Shown piece after piece: positions 505 through 8,215 of a DNA stretch of 8,215 nt (position 1 is the first letter of the stretch; the number at the start of each line of letters is the position of its first letter). The notes under the pieces are model-generated. The model made no database searches, was not told where the DNA came from, and saw only the letters and a list, made by a program, of their open reading frames with translations. This DNA comes from Candidatus Eiseniibacteriota bacterium (GTDB lineage: Bacteria > JAFGKV01): NCBI GenBank assembly GCA_025453925.1, contig JALOPK010000139.1, forward strand, positions 1 to 8,215, read 5' to 3'. A program made the position numbers and the translations under genes.

Positions 505-1185
505 TCAGTCGCGGTTGTCCCTGAGGACCAGCAGCCTGATCAGGTTCATCACCGCAACTGCTGCGGCCGCGATATAAGTGAGGGCTGCCGCGCGGAGCAC
601 ACTGCGCGCTCCCGGGATCTCGTCCTCGGCCAGGATTCCCGACCTGGTAAGCTGTGCCAGCGCGCGCTGGGAAGCATTCAGCTCAACGGGGAGGGTGACC
701 ACGTGGAACAACACCGCTCCGGAGAACAGAAGAATGCCCGCGTCCAGCAACTGGTTGCTGCCCATCAGCAATCCCGCGATGGCAAGAGGCCAGGCCAGGG
801 TGCTTCCGATCTGCGCGGGACCCAGGAGCCCGTGCCGGAATCTCAAGGGCAGATAGCCGGAGGCATCTTGCAGCGCGTGGCCGACCTCGTGGGCGGCGAC
901 CCCTACCGCGGCCAGCGACGTACCCCCATAGACGGGCTCTGAGAGCCGGATCCGGCGCGCCCGCGGGTCATAATGGTCAGTCAGAGATCCTCGTTGCGGC
1001 TCGATCTCGATAGCGGCCAGACCGTTAGAGCGCAGAATCGCGGCCGCCGCCTCGGCGCCGCTTAGACCGCGGCGTGCCCGCACGCGTGACTGGGTGGAAA
1101 AGGCTCGCTGCACCATGGCCTGCGCGATCAGCGCCAGGATCATGGCAGGAATGATCAGGATGTACGTGGCGTCGCCGAAGAACAT
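505..1185 (-). CDS. YugP-like membrane zinc metallopeptidase (Zn_peptidase_2)
   Basis: Predicted integral-membrane zinc-dependent peptidase of the YugP family (PF04298); 226 residues, the usual size. The start is ATG 1185, giving the family-typical N-terminus MFFGDATYILIIPAM. It has a strong GGAAGGGGAG ribosome site immediately upstream. An in-frame ATG at 1257 is rejected because it adds 24 polar residues and lacks a ribosome site. Visible parts: first transmembrane helix at about 8-25; conserved TDHYDPRARRIRLSE at 69-83; catalytic HEVGH at 99-103 (His99, His103 zinc ligands, Glu100 base); hydrophobic segments at about 122-142 and 147-166; LPVELNAS at 165-172, where Glu168 is the likely third ligand; and a C-terminal helix at about 195-220. 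It heads a two-gene operon with the asparaginase-like gene 15 bases downstream. Substrates of this family are not well established; a role in membrane-protein turnover is inference. Confidence 0.93.
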   Translation of the reverse strand: MFFGDATYILIIPAMILALIAQAMVQRAFSTQSRVRARRGLSGAEAAAAILRSNGLAAIEIEPQRGSLTDHYDPRARRIRLSEPVYGGTSLAAVGVAAHEVGHALQDASGYLPLRFRHGLLGPAQIGSTLAWPLAIAGLLMGSNQLLDAGILLFSGAVLFHVVTLPVELNASQRALAQLTRSGILAEDEIPGARSVLRAAALTYIAAAAVAVMNLIRLLVLRDNRD

Positions 1186-1188
1186 ATT

Positions 1189-1198
1189 CTCCCCTTCC
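1189..1198 (-). promoter_or_regulatory. Ribosome binding site of the zinc peptidase
   Basis: On the minus strand GGAAGGGGAG lies 3 bases before ATG 1185. It is purine-only and strongly complementary to the 16S rRNA tail. This decides the start in favour of ATG 1185 over the upstream in-frame ATG at 1257. Confidence 0.75.
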
Positions 1199-1201
1199 GG
1201 T

Positions 1202-1208
1202 GTATAAG
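1202..1208. promoter_or_regulatory. Candidate -10 hexamer(s) in the divergent intergenic region
   Basis: The plus strand reads TATAAG at 1203-1208, five of six bases matching the TATAAT consensus. The minus strand reads TTATAC at 1202-1207. No good TTGACA-like -35 sits at 16-18 bases in either direction. Used on the plus strand, it would start transcription at about 1215, inside the palindrome, with a leader of about 100 bases for the sulfatase-like gene. Used on the minus strand, it would start only about 10 bases before the peptidase ATG, inside its ribosome site. The plus orientation is therefore the better guess. Promoter consensus for this organism is unknown. Confidence 0.25.
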
Positions 1209-1214
1209 TCGTCT

Positions 1215-1235
1215 GGATTTCCTGACAGGAAATCC
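1215..1235. promoter_or_regulatory. Perfect 21-bp palindrome, candidate operator
   Basis: Left arm GGATTTCCTG, centre A, right arm the exact reverse complement, so 10 of 10 arm positions match. It lies between two divergent genes and directly next to the TATAAG/TTATAC hexamers, where a dimeric transcription factor would be expected to bind. A 7-bp direct repeat (GTCGTCT) brackets it at 1208-1214 and 1238-1244. As RNA it could also form a 9-bp stem with a 3-base loop, but no T-run follows on either strand, so it is not a typical terminator. I cannot match it to a named regulator's consensus. Confidence 0.5.
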
Positions 1236-1304
1236 GTGTCGTCTTCAATGCGCTCAAAACCCAGCACGCGTGGCCACGGTTCCCGCCGGCCAGCCACTGA
1301 ATGT

Positions 1305-1308
1305 GGAG
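1305..1308 (+). promoter_or_regulatory. Ribosome binding site of the sulfatase-like gene
   Basis: GGAG followed by an 8-base spacer leads to GTG 1317. The alternative in-frame ATGs at 1200 and 1248 have no comparable site and would place a long basic stretch before the hydrophobic signal segment. The GTG start gives a normal signal peptide. Confidence 0.6.
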
Positions 1309-1316
1309 ACAAGATC

Positions 1317-2981
1317 GTGCGTCGTATCCCCGCTGTCATTGGTTTGCTGTTGGTCGCCTCCCCGATCGGCGCTTCCCAGCCGAACGTGCTCCTCATCACG
1401 GTCGATGCCCTTCGGCCGGATCGCCTTGGCTGCATGGACTATCCCCATCGGCTCACGCCTACGCTGGACAGCCTTGCCGCAGCCGGCACCGTGTTTACCA
1501 ACGCATTCACCTCGTCGGCGTGGACATCCCCGGCGCTGGTGTCCTGCCTCACGGGGCGGCACGAACCCGCCCATGGCGTGGACACACGGGAGAAGAGCCT
1601 TGCGCCGGGCGTCCCCACCCTTCCGGGAGAGCTGGTGAAGGCCGGGTATCACGCACCCGATGTCTGCTATCTTGTCGGTTCTCCCAACTATCAGAACCTT
1701 GATTTCCAGGCCTTCGACCGGAAACAGGAGTTCCTGACCGCGGGCCACGAGATCATGTTCCGTTGGCTTGAGACGTATGCACCGTCACATCAGCCGTTCT
1801 TCCTGTACTACCACTACCGCGACCTTCATCAGCCCTATGCCCCGTCCCCGCCGTTCGATACGCGCTACCTGCCGGATCAGCGGCCCCCGGACGACCCCGA
1901 GGCCCTGGCGAGATTCACTGCCGTCAGGACGGCCCTGCTGCTGCCGGAGGGAAGACTCGCGTTCTCCCCCTCGGACACGGGATGGGTCCGAGGGCTCTAC
2001 GACGGCGAGGTTGCCGAAGCGGACGCCCGATTCTTCCGCCCACTCCTGCACCAGCTCCGCATGCTGGGCATCGCCGAGAACACGCTCGTCATCATCAGTG
2101 CGGACCACGGGGAGGAGTTGCTGGAGCATGGCAACGTGGGTCACGCCAGTACCTCGCTGACGAGCACGCTGTATGACGAAGAACTTCGTATTCCACTCAT
2201 AGTCTCATGGCCGGCGGCAACCACGGTGGGCCATGTCGTGCGCGACATGGTCCAGCTCGTGGACGTGATGCCCACCGTGCTCGACCTCACGGGAATCCCC
2301 GTGCCAGAGGGCATCCAGGGAAGGTCGCTGCGACCATTGATAGAGGGAGAGGGCCTTGCTCCGAGGCCGGTCTATGTGTCGTCGGTTCTCGGCGGATATC
2401 AGGCCACAGCGCAGATGCAGGGAATTCGACTCCGAGCGGTGCGCACGGACCGATGGAAGCTCGTTCGCCGTGATGACCAGACCCTGGGTTCCTCACGGAC
2501 GCTCTATGACCTGGCCCATGATCCCTCCGAGCGGGTGGACTGCACCACCACCCACGCTGGTGTCGCCGACAGCCTGGAGGGCCTCCTGGAAACCTGGCTC
2601 GCCCGCTGCCGGACGCTCTACCGGCAGCCGCTCTGGGCGGGCGGAGAGGGGCGGCAGGGCAGCGCGGTGCGTCCAACGGTGCTGAGCCCGCAAACCGGTG
2701 ACAGCCTGCGCTTCGACTCCTCCAAAGGCATGCTCGGAGTCCGTTTACAGGGAACCGGTGCCGGCGACTACGACATTCAATACTCGGTCGGAACAGGCTC
2801 CTATCACGTGGAAGGCGTGATCCCATCCGCGCCGGATGGGGTATTCTACGGTCCCTTTACTCCCACCTTCTGGAACACACTCGTCGGGTACAATCCGTGG
2901 GCGTTTCGCGTCATGCCCTCCGGCAGGAGCGACCTCGCCACCGACTGGGTGACATTCTACCTCCAGCCGTCTGACCCGTGA
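1317..2981 (+). CDS. Exported sulfatase/alkaline-phosphatase-superfamily hydrolase with Thr in place of the formylglycine Cys
   Basis: 554 residues from GTG 1317. The N-terminus is a short signal peptide (basic VRR, hydrophobic core at about 4-17, likely cleavage near GAS at 18-20), so it acts outside the cytoplasm. Residues 22-430 are a sulfatase-type (PF00884) core: NVLLITVDALRPDRLGC at 23-39 (metal ligand Asp30), the active-site loop WTSPALVSCLTGRHEPAHG at 69-87, and LVIISADHGEELLEHG at 257-272 (Asp263, His264). In true sulfatases the loop is CxPSR and the Cys becomes formylglycine; here the matching residues are T70-S-P-A-L74. That argues against a formylglycine sulfatase. A Thr-nucleophile phosphatase, phosphodiesterase or phospho-transferase is more likely, as in other superfamily branches. 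Residues 450-554 are an added beta-rich, Ig-like tail. The stop overlaps the next gene's start. Fold is confident, reaction is not. Confidence 0.88.
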   Translation: MRRIPAVIGLLLVASPIGASQPNVLLITVDALRPDRLGCMDYPHRLTPTLDSLAAAGTVFTNAFTSSAWTSPALVSCLTGRHEPAHGVDTREKSLAPGVPTLPGELVKAGYHAPDVCYLVGSPNYQNLDFQAFDRKQEFLTAGHEIMFRWLETYAPSHQPFFLYYHYRDLHQPYAPSPPFDTRYLPDQRPPDDPEALARFTAVRTALLLPEGRLAFSPSDTGWVRGLYDGEVAEADARFFRPLLHQLRMLGIAENTLVIISADHGEELLEHGNVGHASTSLTSTLYDEELRIPLIVSWPAATTVGHVVRDMVQLVDVMPTVLDLTGIPVPEGIQGRSLRPLIEGEGLAPRPVYVSSVLGGYQATAQMQGIRLRAVRTDRWKLVRRDDQTLGSSRTLYDLAHDPSERVDCTTTHAGVADSLEGLLETWLARCRTLYRQPLWAGGEGRQGSAVRPTVLSPQTGDSLRFDSSKGMLGVRLQGTGAGDYDIQYSVGTGSYHVEGVIPSAPDGVFYGPFTPTFWNTLVGYNPWAFRVMPSGRSDLATDWVTFYLQPSDP

Positions 2982-5900
2982 TGCTGATGCGCGCGCGCGC
3001 GGCCACAGCGCTGCTTCTCCTTGCCGCCACGACCTGCGCGGTCGAACCGCCCCGCCGGCGGGTCTTGCTGCTCGAGCCGCCGGGCGACGATGCCACGCAC
3101 GAGGAGCATGTCCTCGGCTCATGCGGGGTCGCGGTCACATCATTGCGTCCCTTCCCCGAATGGGAAGGCGAGTGGGAATGGATCGCGGACCCGGGCGATA
3201 GCGGCGCGTCAGATGGTTGGGCGCTCGGGAGCGGTCCCGGGTGGCGGAGAATCCGGACAGGCACTCCCTGGCAGGCGCAGGGTATCCGGCATGCGGGAGT
3301 CGCGTGGTACCGCCGAACCTTCCACTGCAGTGGGGTCCCCTCGGTGCCCGTGTGCCTCACGATCCGCTCCGCGGAGGACTCGGCCATGGTGTTCCTCAAC
3401 GGAGCGCGAATCGGCTCAGGAGGGGGAAACTGGGGGGATATCGATGTGCCGCTCGACAGGCTCAGGCAAGGGCGCAATCAACTTGCCATCCGCGTGGTCA
3501 ATCCCGCTGCCTCCGGGGATCCTAACCGTGGAGGCCTATCCGGGCACGTTGACTTCTCGATCATCGCCGGCAGCCTCAACCTGGCCGAAGCCGATCTGGT
3601 CGTCCTCTCCAGTCGCCTGCTCCTGTCGTTCTGGTCAGCCGCGACGCTTGAGGAGCATGTGCGCCAGGGAGGCGCCGTGCTGGCGTTGATGCACGATGCG
3701 GCGCGCAGATGGGAGGATTCCCCCATCGAGCGCATGCTGCCGACCTGTCTCGGGCTCTCCTCCGCGTTGGCGGGAACGGTGCGGCCGATTCCGGCGGGCA
3801 CGCTGGCCGGGGTCATCGACAGGGATGCCGACCCTCTTCAGGTGACCGCCAGCATTCTGCTTCCGAGTCACCCGAACTTCGCCCGGCCCGGAACCCGGGA
3901 GACTGCCCGTTGGAATCTCTCCCCGCTGGCATGGGACCATCGGATCGAAGTCGTCGGTGACGATCCGAAGGCTTCCCCGTTGCTGACCAGTGCGCAGTAC
4001 GGTGCGGGAGTCATCGTTGCGTGCGCCGCTCCAGCATTGTTCGAACCTGCCCGCATACGGGGAATCCTTGCCCGAGCCGGCGAAGGCCTTCCCGGGAACA
4101 CTCCATCTCTGGGGAAAGTGTGGAGCGCCGCGGGCCTGCCGGCCGACCATCTGATCTTCCAGGGACTTGAGCCCTCGGAGCAGGATGATGCGGACGTCGT
4201 TATTGTGGGCGGCGCCACCGCCGCGCAACAGGTCCGCGATGCGGTGTCCGGGGGAAAGACCGCGCTCGTGCTTGACCCGGACATCCTGGCGGACCATCCG
4301 GACCTCAATCCCTGGTCCCAGGAGATCCGAACCCCGGCCACGCCGTTCCCTCTCATGACCCAGGAAGCCTGGTCGAGCATCACACAAAGGGGAGAACCGC
4401 GCACGGTCAGGATAGCCTGCCCGCCGGGATCCAGCCATCAGCTGTGCATTAAGGAAGGCCCGTACGGATCAGTGCGCGGAATATGGACCGCCGAGGAGAC
4501 GGGCCGGCGCTGCGTCGACGGCTCATGGGTCATCTCCCCGGCGGCCTCCCTGCAGGTCGGAGTGTGGACCGACGTGGAGACGGAGGTACCCATCGTACAT
4601 GCAGGCGATCGAGCGATCGTGGTCACGGGAACAGGGATCCGGCTGGGCCAGCCTCTCAACAGGCCCGGGCTTCGACGCCCCGTAGGCGAGGTGCTCTGGC
4701 GCTGGGAGGACGGCGAGCCCGCCCTCGCCGTCAGGCAAGTGGGCTCCGGCAGGGTCGCATCGTTCTCCGTGCCCTTGGAGTGGCAGGATCCGCGCCGGCT
4801 CGACTGGAGCGACGTTCACGCGTCAAAGAGCCGCTTCCTTTCCGAGGACTCCGCCCAGTTGCCGGCGCTGGCCGCCCGGCAGCTGGTCAGCTCGGATCTC
4901 ACACTGGGTCCGGTTGAGACAACCGCGTCGGGCGTGACCGTCGGCCTCGGGGCGACACCCCGGCCCGTGCAAGTGCGCTACCGCTTCAGGGACTGGCAAC
5001 GGAGCCTGCTCAGTTCCCGCAGTGTTGATTTGGCTCCGCAGCGAGAGCGCCGGTCAGTGACGATCCCCTGGCCCGATGACGAGGTACGATCCACCTATGA
5101 GGCTGCGGAGCAGTGCCCGTCGCTGTGGCTGGAGGTTGCGGTAGTATCGGAGCCCGGGGATCGATGCCTCTCCCACCTTGAGCTTGCCGTGCAACGGCCT
5201 GGCCCGCTCCTCTCCGTCTGGCACACGCCCCTCTCCCGACGTGCTCCTCAGCGGCTGGCGACCTGGCCCCGCACGGCCGATCCGGAGTTCCCCCGAGAGC
5301 AGGGTCCGGCGGGACAGTACCCCCTCTTCGTGCCGGGTGAGGATATCACGCTGCTGGCCGAAACCTGGGCGCCGGGGGCCCGGGAGGCCGAGGTACGCGT
5401 GCAGGATCTGATCCACGGCAGGGAAATCGACATTGCCTCGGTTCCTCTTCGGAGGTCGGCCGGTCCCTGGCGTGTGACGGAGTGGCGTATGCCCGCTCCG
5501 GCGCCTTCCCTGTACCGCGTCGAGGCCAGCCTTGACGGAGTCGTCGCAAGTTCGATGCTCGTCGTCTCGACGCCGACCGATCTCAGAAGCGCGTCCTGGG
5601 ACAAGGCGAAGGGGGTCCAGGTTCTGGGAACGCTGCTCCCTTACTGCGACGAAGAGCAATTCGCCGTTGAGAATCTCTGCGCCCACGCCGACAGCGGCCT
5701 CGCCTGGGGACCTTTTGCACATTCGCGCGCCGGGCAACCATGGTGCGATTTCCTTCCGAATCCCTTCAGCATTCTGCCAAACGGCATCCGCTACCGGACC
5801 TGGATCTCGCCCACAATCCGCAGCCTTGCCCGTCACACGTGGACGGGAGAGACGCTTACCATCAGTGCGTCTTTGGTTGACGGGTTCAATGGGGTCCCGT

Positions 5901-7300
5901 GGCCGCCGGCCTTCGTGCATCCGCAACATCTCGCCGCGTTCGCGCGTTGGAAGGCCGGCATGGGCGGGGGCGATCTGCGGGCTCTCCCGGCCGACAGCCT
6001 GGCGGCCCTCGCACTGGGTCCCCTGGCAGCGGAATGGCGCTTTTTCGTTGCCACGGAAATCGCGTTGCCCGCCCATCGAATCGTCAAGGACGAACTGCAG
6101 GCAGCCTCACCTGGCTCAAATCTGACCGACCAGTTCGATCTCCCGTTGCTCCCGACGCTGCTTCGCATTCCAGACGTCGAGCGTTTCGCTGAGTCATGGC
6201 AGGACCTCTTCGCCCTGTCTTCATCGGACGCCTGGAACATCCGCGCAGGGCGGGACTACCACGCGGCCACCTACTTGGTGTGCCTGGGCAAGGCCCTGGC
6301 ACCCCGATCCAGGATCGGGCACTATCACATGGAAATGTTGGGCGGAATCGGCCCGGAGCGAATTGCCAAGGCCGAGCTCATCCGCCGCCAGAACGCCGAC
6401 CTCTTCTGGATGATGGCCGCATCCGATTGGGGCTGGGTCCCCGTCGAGTCATATGCCGACGGTGGAGGTGTTTCCTGGCTGGGAGGGTGGCAAACCTGGC
6501 TGCCTCTCTCGTCGAAGAGCCTCCGAGGGGGCCACGTCGCGTTCCCGGAGGACTGGCAGGCGCTACAGCGTCTCTATGCGATGGCCGAGGCCGTGCGCCC
6601 GCAGCGTCCGCGGGGATTCACTCTGGCGGCTGTGGGGCCGAGAATGCCGGCCGGCGAGGAGGTCATCATGGGCGACCAGGCGAGGCTGTTCGGCATGTTG
6701 CGGGAGACCGGGCTGGTCATCTCGTCCATGGCGCGTCTGGACAAGATCAGCCTTTCAACCGTTCCCGACGGCATCATCGTGCCCGTTCCTGGCGAGCTGA
6801 CCGTGCGCGAGCGCGAGGGGCTGCAGCTCTGCGTGGACGAGGGCATACCGGTCGGAGTCATCGGCCTGGGTCTCTCCGAAGACGCCATTGCGGCATACAC
6901 CGGGATCACTGGATCCCAGTTGAACTCGCCGCCTTTCTCGCTCCTCCGCGGAGGGAACGTCCGCGGACCGTTCTGGCCTGACGGGACCGACGAGGACTAT
7001 CGTGCGGTGGCCGAGTTCGCCAGGGACCTGCGGCAGCGGTGTGCGTTTGACGTATCCGCCGCCGAGGGCGTGTCATCCTATGCCTTCGAAGGGAGCCATG
7101 GTCTCATGGTGGTGCTCCTGGAGGAACGGGGCGAGGCCCGGACGGTTGTCGTGACGCTCCGGACCCAGGCGAAAGGCACCCACGCCGCCGAGTTCCTTCG
7201 AGGAAGGCCGTTGGTCGTTCGCCACACAGAGCGAGGACCAGTCGTTGAGGTTCCCCTGGCGGCGGCCGGAGCAGCACTGGTGCAGATCTCCTATGAATAG
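2981..7300 (+). CDS. Giant exported multidomain glycoside-hydrolase-like protein (GH42-like layout)
   Basis: 1,439 residues from ATG 2981 (TGATG overlap with the previous stop). GTG 2978 or ATG 2987 are alternatives. No Shine-Dalgarno is visible, so translation is probably coupled. Segments, approximate: 1-19 signal peptide (ALLLLAATTC, a poor lipobox because Thr precedes Cys19); 26-58 and 198-350 amidotransferase-like fold with GGAVLAL at 230-236; 85-195 galactose-binding-like beta-sandwich (AWYRRTF 108-114, FLNGARIG 138-145); 380-440 a second Rossmann-like piece (DADVVIVGG); 640-865 two Ig-like domains; 868-1205 a TIM-barrel-like part with RFFVATEIALPAHRIVKDEL at 1020-1039 and HYHMEM, Glu1118 a candidate nucleophile; 1205-1330 a trimerisation-like Rossmann segment; 1365-1439 beta C-terminus. 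Barrel, trimerisation-like domain and beta tail recall GH42 beta-galactosidases. The family is not certain and catalytic residues are unproven. The sulfatase-like partner upstream suggests a decorated glycan substrate. Confidence 0.85.
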   Translation: MLMRARAATALLLLAATTCAVEPPRRRVLLLEPPGDDATHEEHVLGSCGVAVTSLRPFPEWEGEWEWIADPGDSGASDGWALGSGPGWRRIRTGTPWQAQGIRHAGVAWYRRTFHCSGVPSVPVCLTIRSAEDSAMVFLNGARIGSGGGNWGDIDVPLDRLRQGRNQLAIRVVNPAASGDPNRGGLSGHVDFSIIAGSLNLAEADLVVLSSRLLLSFWSAATLEEHVRQGGAVLALMHDAARRWEDSPIERMLPTCLGLSSALAGTVRPIPAGTLAGVIDRDADPLQVTASILLPSHPNFARPGTRETARWNLSPLAWDHRIEVVGDDPKASPLLTSAQYGAGVIVACAAPALFEPARIRGILARAGEGLPGNTPSLGKVWSAAGLPADHLIFQGLEPSEQDDADVVIVGGATAAQQVRDAVSGGKTALVLDPDILADHPDLNPWSQEIRTPATPFPLMTQEAWSSITQRGEPRTVRIACPPGSSHQLCIKEGPYGSVRGIWTAEETGRRCVDGSWVISPAASLQVGVWTDVETEVPIVHAGDRAIVVTGTGIRLGQPLNRPGLRRPVGEVLWRWEDGEPALAVRQVGSGRVASFSVPLEWQDPRRLDWSDVHASKSRFLSEDSAQLPALAARQLVSSDLTLGPVETTASGVTVGLGATPRPVQVRYRFRDWQRSLLSSRSVDLAPQRERRSVTIPWPDDEVRSTYEAAEQCPSLWLEVAVVSEPGDRCLSHLELAVQRPGPLLSVWHTPLSRRAPQRLATWPRTADPEFPREQGPAGQYPLFVPGEDITLLAETWAPGAREAEVRVQDLIHGREIDIASVPLRRSAGPWRVTEWRMPAPAPSLYRVEASLDGVVASSMLVVSTPTDLRSASWDKAKGVQVLGTLLPYCDEEQFAVENLCAHADSGLAWGPFAHSRAGQPWCDFLPNPFSILPNGIRYRTWISPTIRSLARHTWTGETLTISASLVDGFNGVPWPPAFVHPQHLAAFARWKAGMGGGDLRALPADSLAALALGPLAAEWRFFVATEIALPAHRIVKDELQAASPGSNLTDQFDLPLLPTLLRIPDVERFAESWQDLFALSSSDAWNIRAGRDYHAATYLVCLGKALAPRSRIGHYHMEMLGGIGPERIAKAELIRRQNADLFWMMAASDWGWVPVESYADGGGVSWLGGWQTWLPLSSKSLRGGHVAFPEDWQALQRLYAMAEAVRPQRPRGFTLAAVGPRMPAGEEVIMGDQARLFGMLRETGLVISSMARLDKISLSTVPDGIIVPVPGELTVREREGLQLCVDEGIPVGVIGLGLSEDAIAAYTGITGSQLNSPPFSLLRGGNVRGPFWPDGTDEDYRAVAEFARDLRQRCAFDVSAAEGVSSYAFEGSHGLMVVLLEERGEARTVVVTLRTQAKGTHAAEFLRGRPLVVRHTERGPVVEVPLAAAGAALVQISYE
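2989..3001 (+). repeat. Alternating GC dinucleotide tract at the start of the giant gene
   Basis: Thirteen bases of strict G/C alternation lie immediately after the ATG 2987 codon and encode the Arg-Ala-Arg-Ala of the signal peptide n-region. It lies downstream of all three possible start codons, so a gain or loss of one dinucleotide would shift the frame. In GC-rich coding DNA such a tract may arise by chance. Confidence 0.6.
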
Positions 7301-7310
7301 CAGGCGCACG

Positions 7311-8215
7311 ATGAAAACGGCCGCGACGCCCCGATGCCCGGAGAGCCTGACGGCGGCGCACCGGAGAGACGACCACAGGTCACCGCGTTCGCACACCGGC
7401 AGAGCGGAAAAGTCGGGCGGGAAACGCGGGAGGGCGCACGGCAGAGCCTCAGCGGCCGACCGCGTGCGGCTTCATGCCATGCTTGCCGCCGCCCTTCTTT
7501 TCACGGTAACACCTGAGTCCGAACCATCGCCCCTCCTGCGATGGTTGGGAGCGAACACCAGGGTGGTGATCGGCGAAGCCGCTTCGGTACGAGAACGCGA
7601 GGCCGCGCTCAGGGTGTGCGGCACGCTTGTTCCTGAGGACCCTTCGTCGGTGCTCTTGACCGATGCCTGGATCGCCGCCCACCGGATCGAGGCGGGTTCC
7701 CATCACCTCGTTATCGTGGGCACACCGCAGTCAAACAGCGCACTCCGTGACCACCACAGCATGTGGTGGCGGACGGCGGAGTGCGAGGACGCGGCCACCT
7801 TCCCGGTTCGAGGTGTGTATCTGTTCGGTGCGGGGGATCTGCCGGGCAGAGCTGCCGGCGTCATTGAGCCGGTGAGAAACCCATACGCCATTGCCGCCGC
7901 CGAGGCGCCTGCAGCGTCGGGAGCCCCTCTGACGTGGGTGGTGCGGTGCGCGGGAAGGTTTCCCGAGGGCGCTGCCGCCGCGGTTGACGCGCTGCTGGAC
8001 GATGCTATGCTCTCCGGCGCCGTGGTCGACTCCCGGGCGTCAATGGACGCTGCCGCCTGGGAGGTGGACAGAGATCTCCTCACAGCTCAGCCGCCCTCCT
8101 GGTCGACCGCCGCGGAGCTGGAGGGCCTCGAGCTGGTCGGGTGGCACCAGGCAGACCGGTTGCTGGTCGATGGGCTCACTGCCGCGATGGGTGCGCGGCC
8201 GCTGGCGCTCTGGAG
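7311..8215 (+). CDS. Unrecognised, probably exported protein (C-terminus beyond window)
   Basis: An uninterrupted reading frame runs off the right edge; at least 301 residues from ATG 7311. I do not recognise the family. ATG 7311 is preceded by a weak AGCAGG six bases upstream and lies 10 bases after the previous stop. An in-frame ATG at 7293 overlaps the previous gene by 8 bases, and GTG 7464 gives a short signal peptide (VRLHAMLAAALLFTV) without a ribosome site. If 7311 is right, about 51 Arg/Ser/His-rich residues precede the hydrophobic segment. After it come alternating strands and helices resembling a Rossmann-like domain: TRVVIGEAA, SSVLLTDAW, HHLVIVGTPQSN, then GVYLFGAGDL and TWVVRCAGRFPEG further on. 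The same strand, tight spacing and export signal suggest it belongs with the two upstream genes. Reading-frame reality is fairly sure; start and function are open. Confidence 0.7.
   Translation, partial: MKTAATPRCPESLTAAHRRDDHRSPRSHTGRAEKSGGKRGRAHGRASAADRVRLHAMLAAALLFTVTPESEPSPLLRWLGANTRVVIGEAASVREREAALRVCGTLVPEDPSSVLLTDAWIAAHRIEAGSHHLVIVGTPQSNSALRDHHSMWWRTAECEDAATFPVRGVYLFGAGDLPGRAAGVIEPVRNPYAIAAAEAPAASGAPLTWVVRCAGRFPEGAAAAVDALLDDAMLSGAVVDSRASMDAAAWEVDRDLLTAQPPSWSTAAELEGLELVGWHQADRLLVDGLTAAMGARPLALW
7522..7546 (+). repeat. Perfect 9-bp hairpin inside the last gene
   Basis: AACCATCGC and its exact reverse complement GCGATGGTT are separated by a 7-base loop (CCCTCCT). It lies just after the hydrophobic segment of the downstream protein, 58 bases past the alternative GTG start. 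No T-run follows, so it is not an intrinsic terminator. It could influence translation locally or be chance. Confidence 0.45.

Follow-up and report, generated by a model that had tools for sequence, protein, structure and literature searches.

The window, an 8,215-nucleotide stretch of DNA, corresponds to contig C141 in a genome of 3.9 Mb that is 82% complete. It contains a large open reading frame of 1,439 codons on the forward strand (positions 2981–7300; ATG at 2981, stop codon ending at 7300), which encodes a multi-domain protein with a probable signal peptide. Upstream lies a gene for a "sulfatase-like" member of the alkaline phosphatase superfamily (1200–2981, forward strand), and downstream a gene for a small secreted protein (7473–8213, forward strand), which is truncated by the contig end. 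The order of these genes is the same in all three genomes in which they were found.

Gene cluster and distribution

The large open reading frame is a real gene. Full-length orthologs with 61% and 49% sequence identity are present in both other genomes of the phylum in the searched set, and the differences from the nearest ortholog at codon positions 1, 2, and 3 (0.31/0.22/0.57) indicate selection on the protein. The first 21 residues (2981–3043; MLMRARAATALLLLAATTCAV) form a hydrophobic leader, and the N-termini of both orthologs are also hydrophobic, which suggests that the protein is exported.

A profile of residues 861–1439 detected no further orthologs among 386 sampled genomes, and no relative was found in the phyla of genomes G060 (represented by one genome) and G042 (three genomes). 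When the search of the 386 genomes was relaxed to an E-value of 0.5, the hits were at chance level, fell into seemingly unrelated ORFs, and were rejected. Peptide-pattern scans of GTDB genomes and viral contigs, which rest on a few short peptides that divergent relatives could escape, and tblastn searches of plasmids yielded no relatives beyond the two known orthologs; two of the GTDB contigs matched in the pattern scan are titled Candidatus Fermentibacteria. So far, the protein appears to be limited to one small uncultured lineage, represented by three genomes.

The stop codon of the sulfatase-like gene overlaps the start codon of the large gene (TGATG at 2979–2983), and the reading frames of the two genes touch or overlap also in the orthologous loci; they therefore very likely belong to one operon. 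The true start of the sulfatase-like gene is probably located downstream of position 1257. Its product matches the Pfam family Sulfatase (2.7e-34) and has orthologs in the other two genomes. Sulfatases convert a cysteine or serine residue to formylglycine. In an alignment with a mucin sulfatase, the protein encoded in the window has a threonine at this position and lacks the arginine that follows it (WTSPALVSCLTG); the threonine is conserved in all three genomes. In the alkaline phosphatase superfamily, a threonine nucleophile points to action on phosphoesters; a hydrolase or transferase of phosphoesters is therefore more probable than a hydrolase of sulfate esters.

The small secreted protein encoded downstream belongs to no described family, and its own family occurs in only these three genomes among the 145 searched. 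The C-terminal end that the window's copy lacks seems to be encoded on another contig of the same assembly (G000:C321:4668-4913, locus L164), so that C321 and the contig of the window probably adjoin. On the other side of the operon, the reverse strand (1–1257) encodes a divergently oriented asparaginase (PF00710), which is incomplete at the edge of the contig, and a Zn peptidase (PF04298). The peptidase gene is located divergently upstream of the operon in all three genomes; the pair adjoins the operon in the window and at locus L007, and the peptidase does so at L008.

Domains flanking the core

The N-terminal half of the large protein carries accessory domains of carbohydrate-active enzymes. 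Residues 61–178 (3161–3514, forward strand) constitute a sugar-binding jelly roll of the type found in GH2 enzymes and sialate O-acetylesterases: a profile built from the three sequences matches the sialate O-acetylesterase 9ega with 1.8e-8 and the GH2 enzyme 6d1n with 2e-5 among PDB sequences, and there are more matches in other genomes, although the single sequences remain below the Pfam cut-offs. The galactose-binding part that a previous, sequence-only reading of the window had proposed is thereby borne out. By contrast with GH2 enzymes and sialate O-acetylesterases, however, neither a GH2 TIM-barrel catalytic domain nor an esterase domain was detected in the large protein, and Pfam gave no match past the N-terminal domain.

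The jelly roll is followed by a domain (residues 196–366; 3566–4078) that is clearly amidotransferase-like and of the GH42 trimerization type (GH42M). In profile–profile comparisons with alignments of GH42, divergent GH42, and GHL6, it scored 47–56, whereas the best shuffle reached 18–29 (20–30 column shuffles); its earliest sign was a match of 7e-5 within a genuine GH42 gene of genome G048. All shuffle tests used 20–40 shuffles and small, hand-chosen alignments, so that they separate clear from unclear cases but give no exact probabilities; among the many comparisons made, only the scores of this domain lie far beyond every control. The first of three amidotransferase-like segments in the sequence-only reading is strongly supported by this result, and its start may lie in a beta-alpha-beta unit formed by residues 26–60 (3056–3160). 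If this unit begins the domain, the jelly roll would be an insertion in it, a reading that is suggestive only, because shuffled heads equaled the real score in 1, 5, and 8 of 40 trials.

Residues 374–645 (4100–4915) may represent a second, degenerate amidotransferase-like domain, but the signal is weak and comes from residues 565–645 only (27.5 against GHL6; shuffles 17.8). The second segment as originally placed (residues 380–440) received no clear support, and none was found for an Ig-like region. The stretch leading from there to the core gave no match.

Two further domains follow the core. Residues 1205–1335 (6593–6985) occupy the position of the trimerization domain in GH42 and GHL6 proteins, and their amidotransferase-like nature is moderately supported. 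They scored 22–23 against divergent GH42 and GHL6 (best shuffle 16–17); the comparison with divergent GH42 gave 23.3 versus 15.9 when shuffled, but canonical GH42 gave no signal (14.2 versus 19.7), and PF08532 has no match in the large protein. These figures give moderate support to the third amidotransferase-like segment of the sequence-only reading, though not from canonical GH42. When joined to the C-terminus, the domain aligns colinearly with the final 290 columns of the alignment of GHL6-type proteins (35.7 versus 20.2 when shuffled).

The last 90 residues (1348–1439; 7022–7297) were modeled by AlphaFold as a beta sandwich with a pLDDT of 64–81, which resembles the C-terminal domains of many glycosidases (Z 8–12). 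The similarity to the GH42 enzyme 6ptm (Z 9.3 over 76 residues, 2.2 Å) is equaled by many other glycosidase families, and the sandwich was rejected as a family marker for this reason. For the GH42-like order of barrel, trimerization-like domain, and beta tail in the sequence-only reading, the profiles and fold matches agree with the last two parts.

Weak matches to these domains occur also in other phyla. In the 2-Mb genome G017, contigs C40, C105, C114, and C127 (loci L151–L155) contain numerous ORFs, the longest of 1,317 amino acids, with weak matches to GH42, GHL6, or the trimerization domain; large and divergent GH42-like proteins are thus expanded in this genome. Locus L057 of genome G060 (763–3162, reverse strand) encodes a secreted protein of 800 amino acids with a weak trimerization-domain match and an N-terminal part that looks barrel-like by eye. 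Among GH42-type ORFs, it gave the best of the weak HMM matches to the C-terminal half of the large protein outside the orthologs of the phylum; as a relative of the core it was rejected, because the alignment spans only the amidotransferase-like and C-terminal parts.

The core region

Residues 862–1215 (5564–6625, forward strand) occupy the place of a glycosidase barrel and are the best conserved part of the protein: most blocks of 40 residues are 48–72% identical in all three sequences, compared with 12–55% in the region before the core. This core has no relevant match in Pfam or among PDB sequences. PF02449 matched neither the three orthologs nor the core alone, and PF14871 (GHL6) did not match the large protein; a search of the genome for the GHL6 family yielded a match in another gene only. 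Scores of the core against GH42 and GHL6 (17–21) did not exceed those of the best shuffles (18–23), and a stretch of 25 columns aligned with GHL6 was marginal (21.3 versus 19.3 when shuffled). Twenty-five large GH42/GHL6-like ORFs from other phyla (approximately 1,000–1,300 amino acids), tried as intermediates, matched mainly the jelly roll and for the core did not surpass the reversed control. The earlier proposal of an undescribed family fits these facts to the extent that the core matches none of the family models searched.

In its architecture, the large protein resembles GH42 beta-galactosidases (PF02449, PF08532), with a probable amidotransferase-like domain and a C-terminal beta sandwich following the core, but it differs from them by approximately 860 additional N-terminal residues, including the jelly roll, and by the missing signal for a GH42 barrel. 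GHL6-type proteins, in which PF14871 is accompanied by an amidotransferase-like and a C-terminal beta domain, provide the best profile match of residues 1205–1439, yet they lack the N-terminal half, and apart from the 25 marginal columns the core remains at the level of shuffled sequences. A precedent for the reuse of the GH42-type plan is provided by the architecture of GH164 and the GH5 mannosidase Op5Man5. GH42, GH164, and Op5Man5 have one architecture in common although their sequence identity is insignificant (PMC8233224); the missing sequence signal is therefore no argument against a barrel. Op5Man5, however, possesses neither a comparable N-terminal half nor a C-terminal beta domain.

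The position of the core in the chain and the order of its motifs make a barrel plausible. On visual inspection, the core switches between strand-like stretches and amphipathic helices; several of these end in acids that are invariant in the three sequences, namely D967 (SLVD967GFNG; 5879–5881), D1050 and D1053 (LTD1050QFD1053), D1083 (SSSD1083AWN), and E1118 (HYHME1118M; 6332–6334), although with only three sequences the invariance of a single residue means little. This order of motifs tentatively suggests barrel strands, and the sequence following D967 (HPQHLAAFARW) looks similar to the helix that succeeds strand 4 in GH42 enzymes.

It is improbable, in our view, that the core has an unrelated fold other than a TIM barrel, placed between known carbohydrate-active accessory domains. 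Such a fold would agree with the lack of sequence support for a barrel and with AlphaFold models of residues 861–1439 and 861–1225, in which the core consists mostly of helices; these models, however, were based on three sequences, too few for structure prediction, and their mean pLDDT of 38 and 34 in the core makes them too poor to read. The alternation of strand-like stretches and helices argues for a barrel instead, as does the position of the core before an amidotransferase-like domain and a beta sandwich, where GH42 and GHL6 proteins have their barrel.

If the core is a barrel, E1118 is the candidate nucleophile. GH164 and Op5Man5 employ two catalytic glutamates on strands 4 and 7, and the catalytic pair of Op5Man5 (E156, E281) is 125 residues apart (PMC8233224). 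D967 and E1118 are separated by 151 residues. By eye, the core shows no Asn-Glu motif like the one that carries the acid/base residue in GH42, and D967 is the nearest invariant acid. The absence of a visible GH42-type motif would also agree with a secreted, non-catalytic protein that binds glycans or serves as a scaffold, in which a glycosidase-derived barrel has lost its acid/base residue and was retained for binding, and the amidotransferase-like domains and the jelly roll build a large assembly. Several domains of the chain are indeed of non-catalytic kinds that function in assembly or binding, but no other part of the protein is as well conserved as the core, and the core contains several invariant acids, which fits better with an active site than with a scaffold; we consider such a non-catalytic role rather unlikely, although it is the chief alternative to an enzyme.

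Predicted function and significance

A glycan-directed protein is the likeliest interpretation, given the order of core, amidotransferase-like domain, and beta sandwich and the sugar-binding jelly roll that the secreted chain also carries. The best explanation, which we regard as evenly balanced between right and wrong, is a lineage-restricted, secreted multi-domain hydrolase of the GH42/GH164-type plan with a predicted catalytic function. Its central (beta/alpha)8 barrel would be followed by an amidotransferase-like oligomerization domain and a beta sandwich, and preceded by an added N-terminal half in which a further amidotransferase-like domain lies beside, or possibly around, the GH2-type jelly roll. 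Binding of a glycan would most likely fall to the jelly roll, and assembly, without amidotransferase chemistry, to the amidotransferase-like domains. The barrel would cleave a glycosidic bond: E1118, at the end of the presumed strand 7 (HYHMEM), would be the nucleophile, and the proton would come from an acid, for instance D967 at the end of the presumed strand 4. The substrate may also carry a charged group on which the phosphatase-superfamily enzyme encoded upstream acts.

A more specific proposal is tentative and, although possible, somewhat doubtful: the core of 350 residues may found a new glycoside hydrolase family with a GH42/GH164-like architecture and an altered acid/base residue (an aspartate on strand 4). 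The enzyme containing it would be secreted and specific to the lineage, and would have two or three amidotransferase-like domains, the first of them with a jelly roll beside or within it.

With an inactive core, the protein would be of local interest, as a binding protein specific to this lineage. If the core is an active barrel, the large protein would represent a hydrolase family beyond the family models searched, in a little-known bacterial lineage, and a case in which the GH42-type plan has been reused with a new barrel and additional amidotransferase-like domains; it would also provide a hint at the food of these bacteria.
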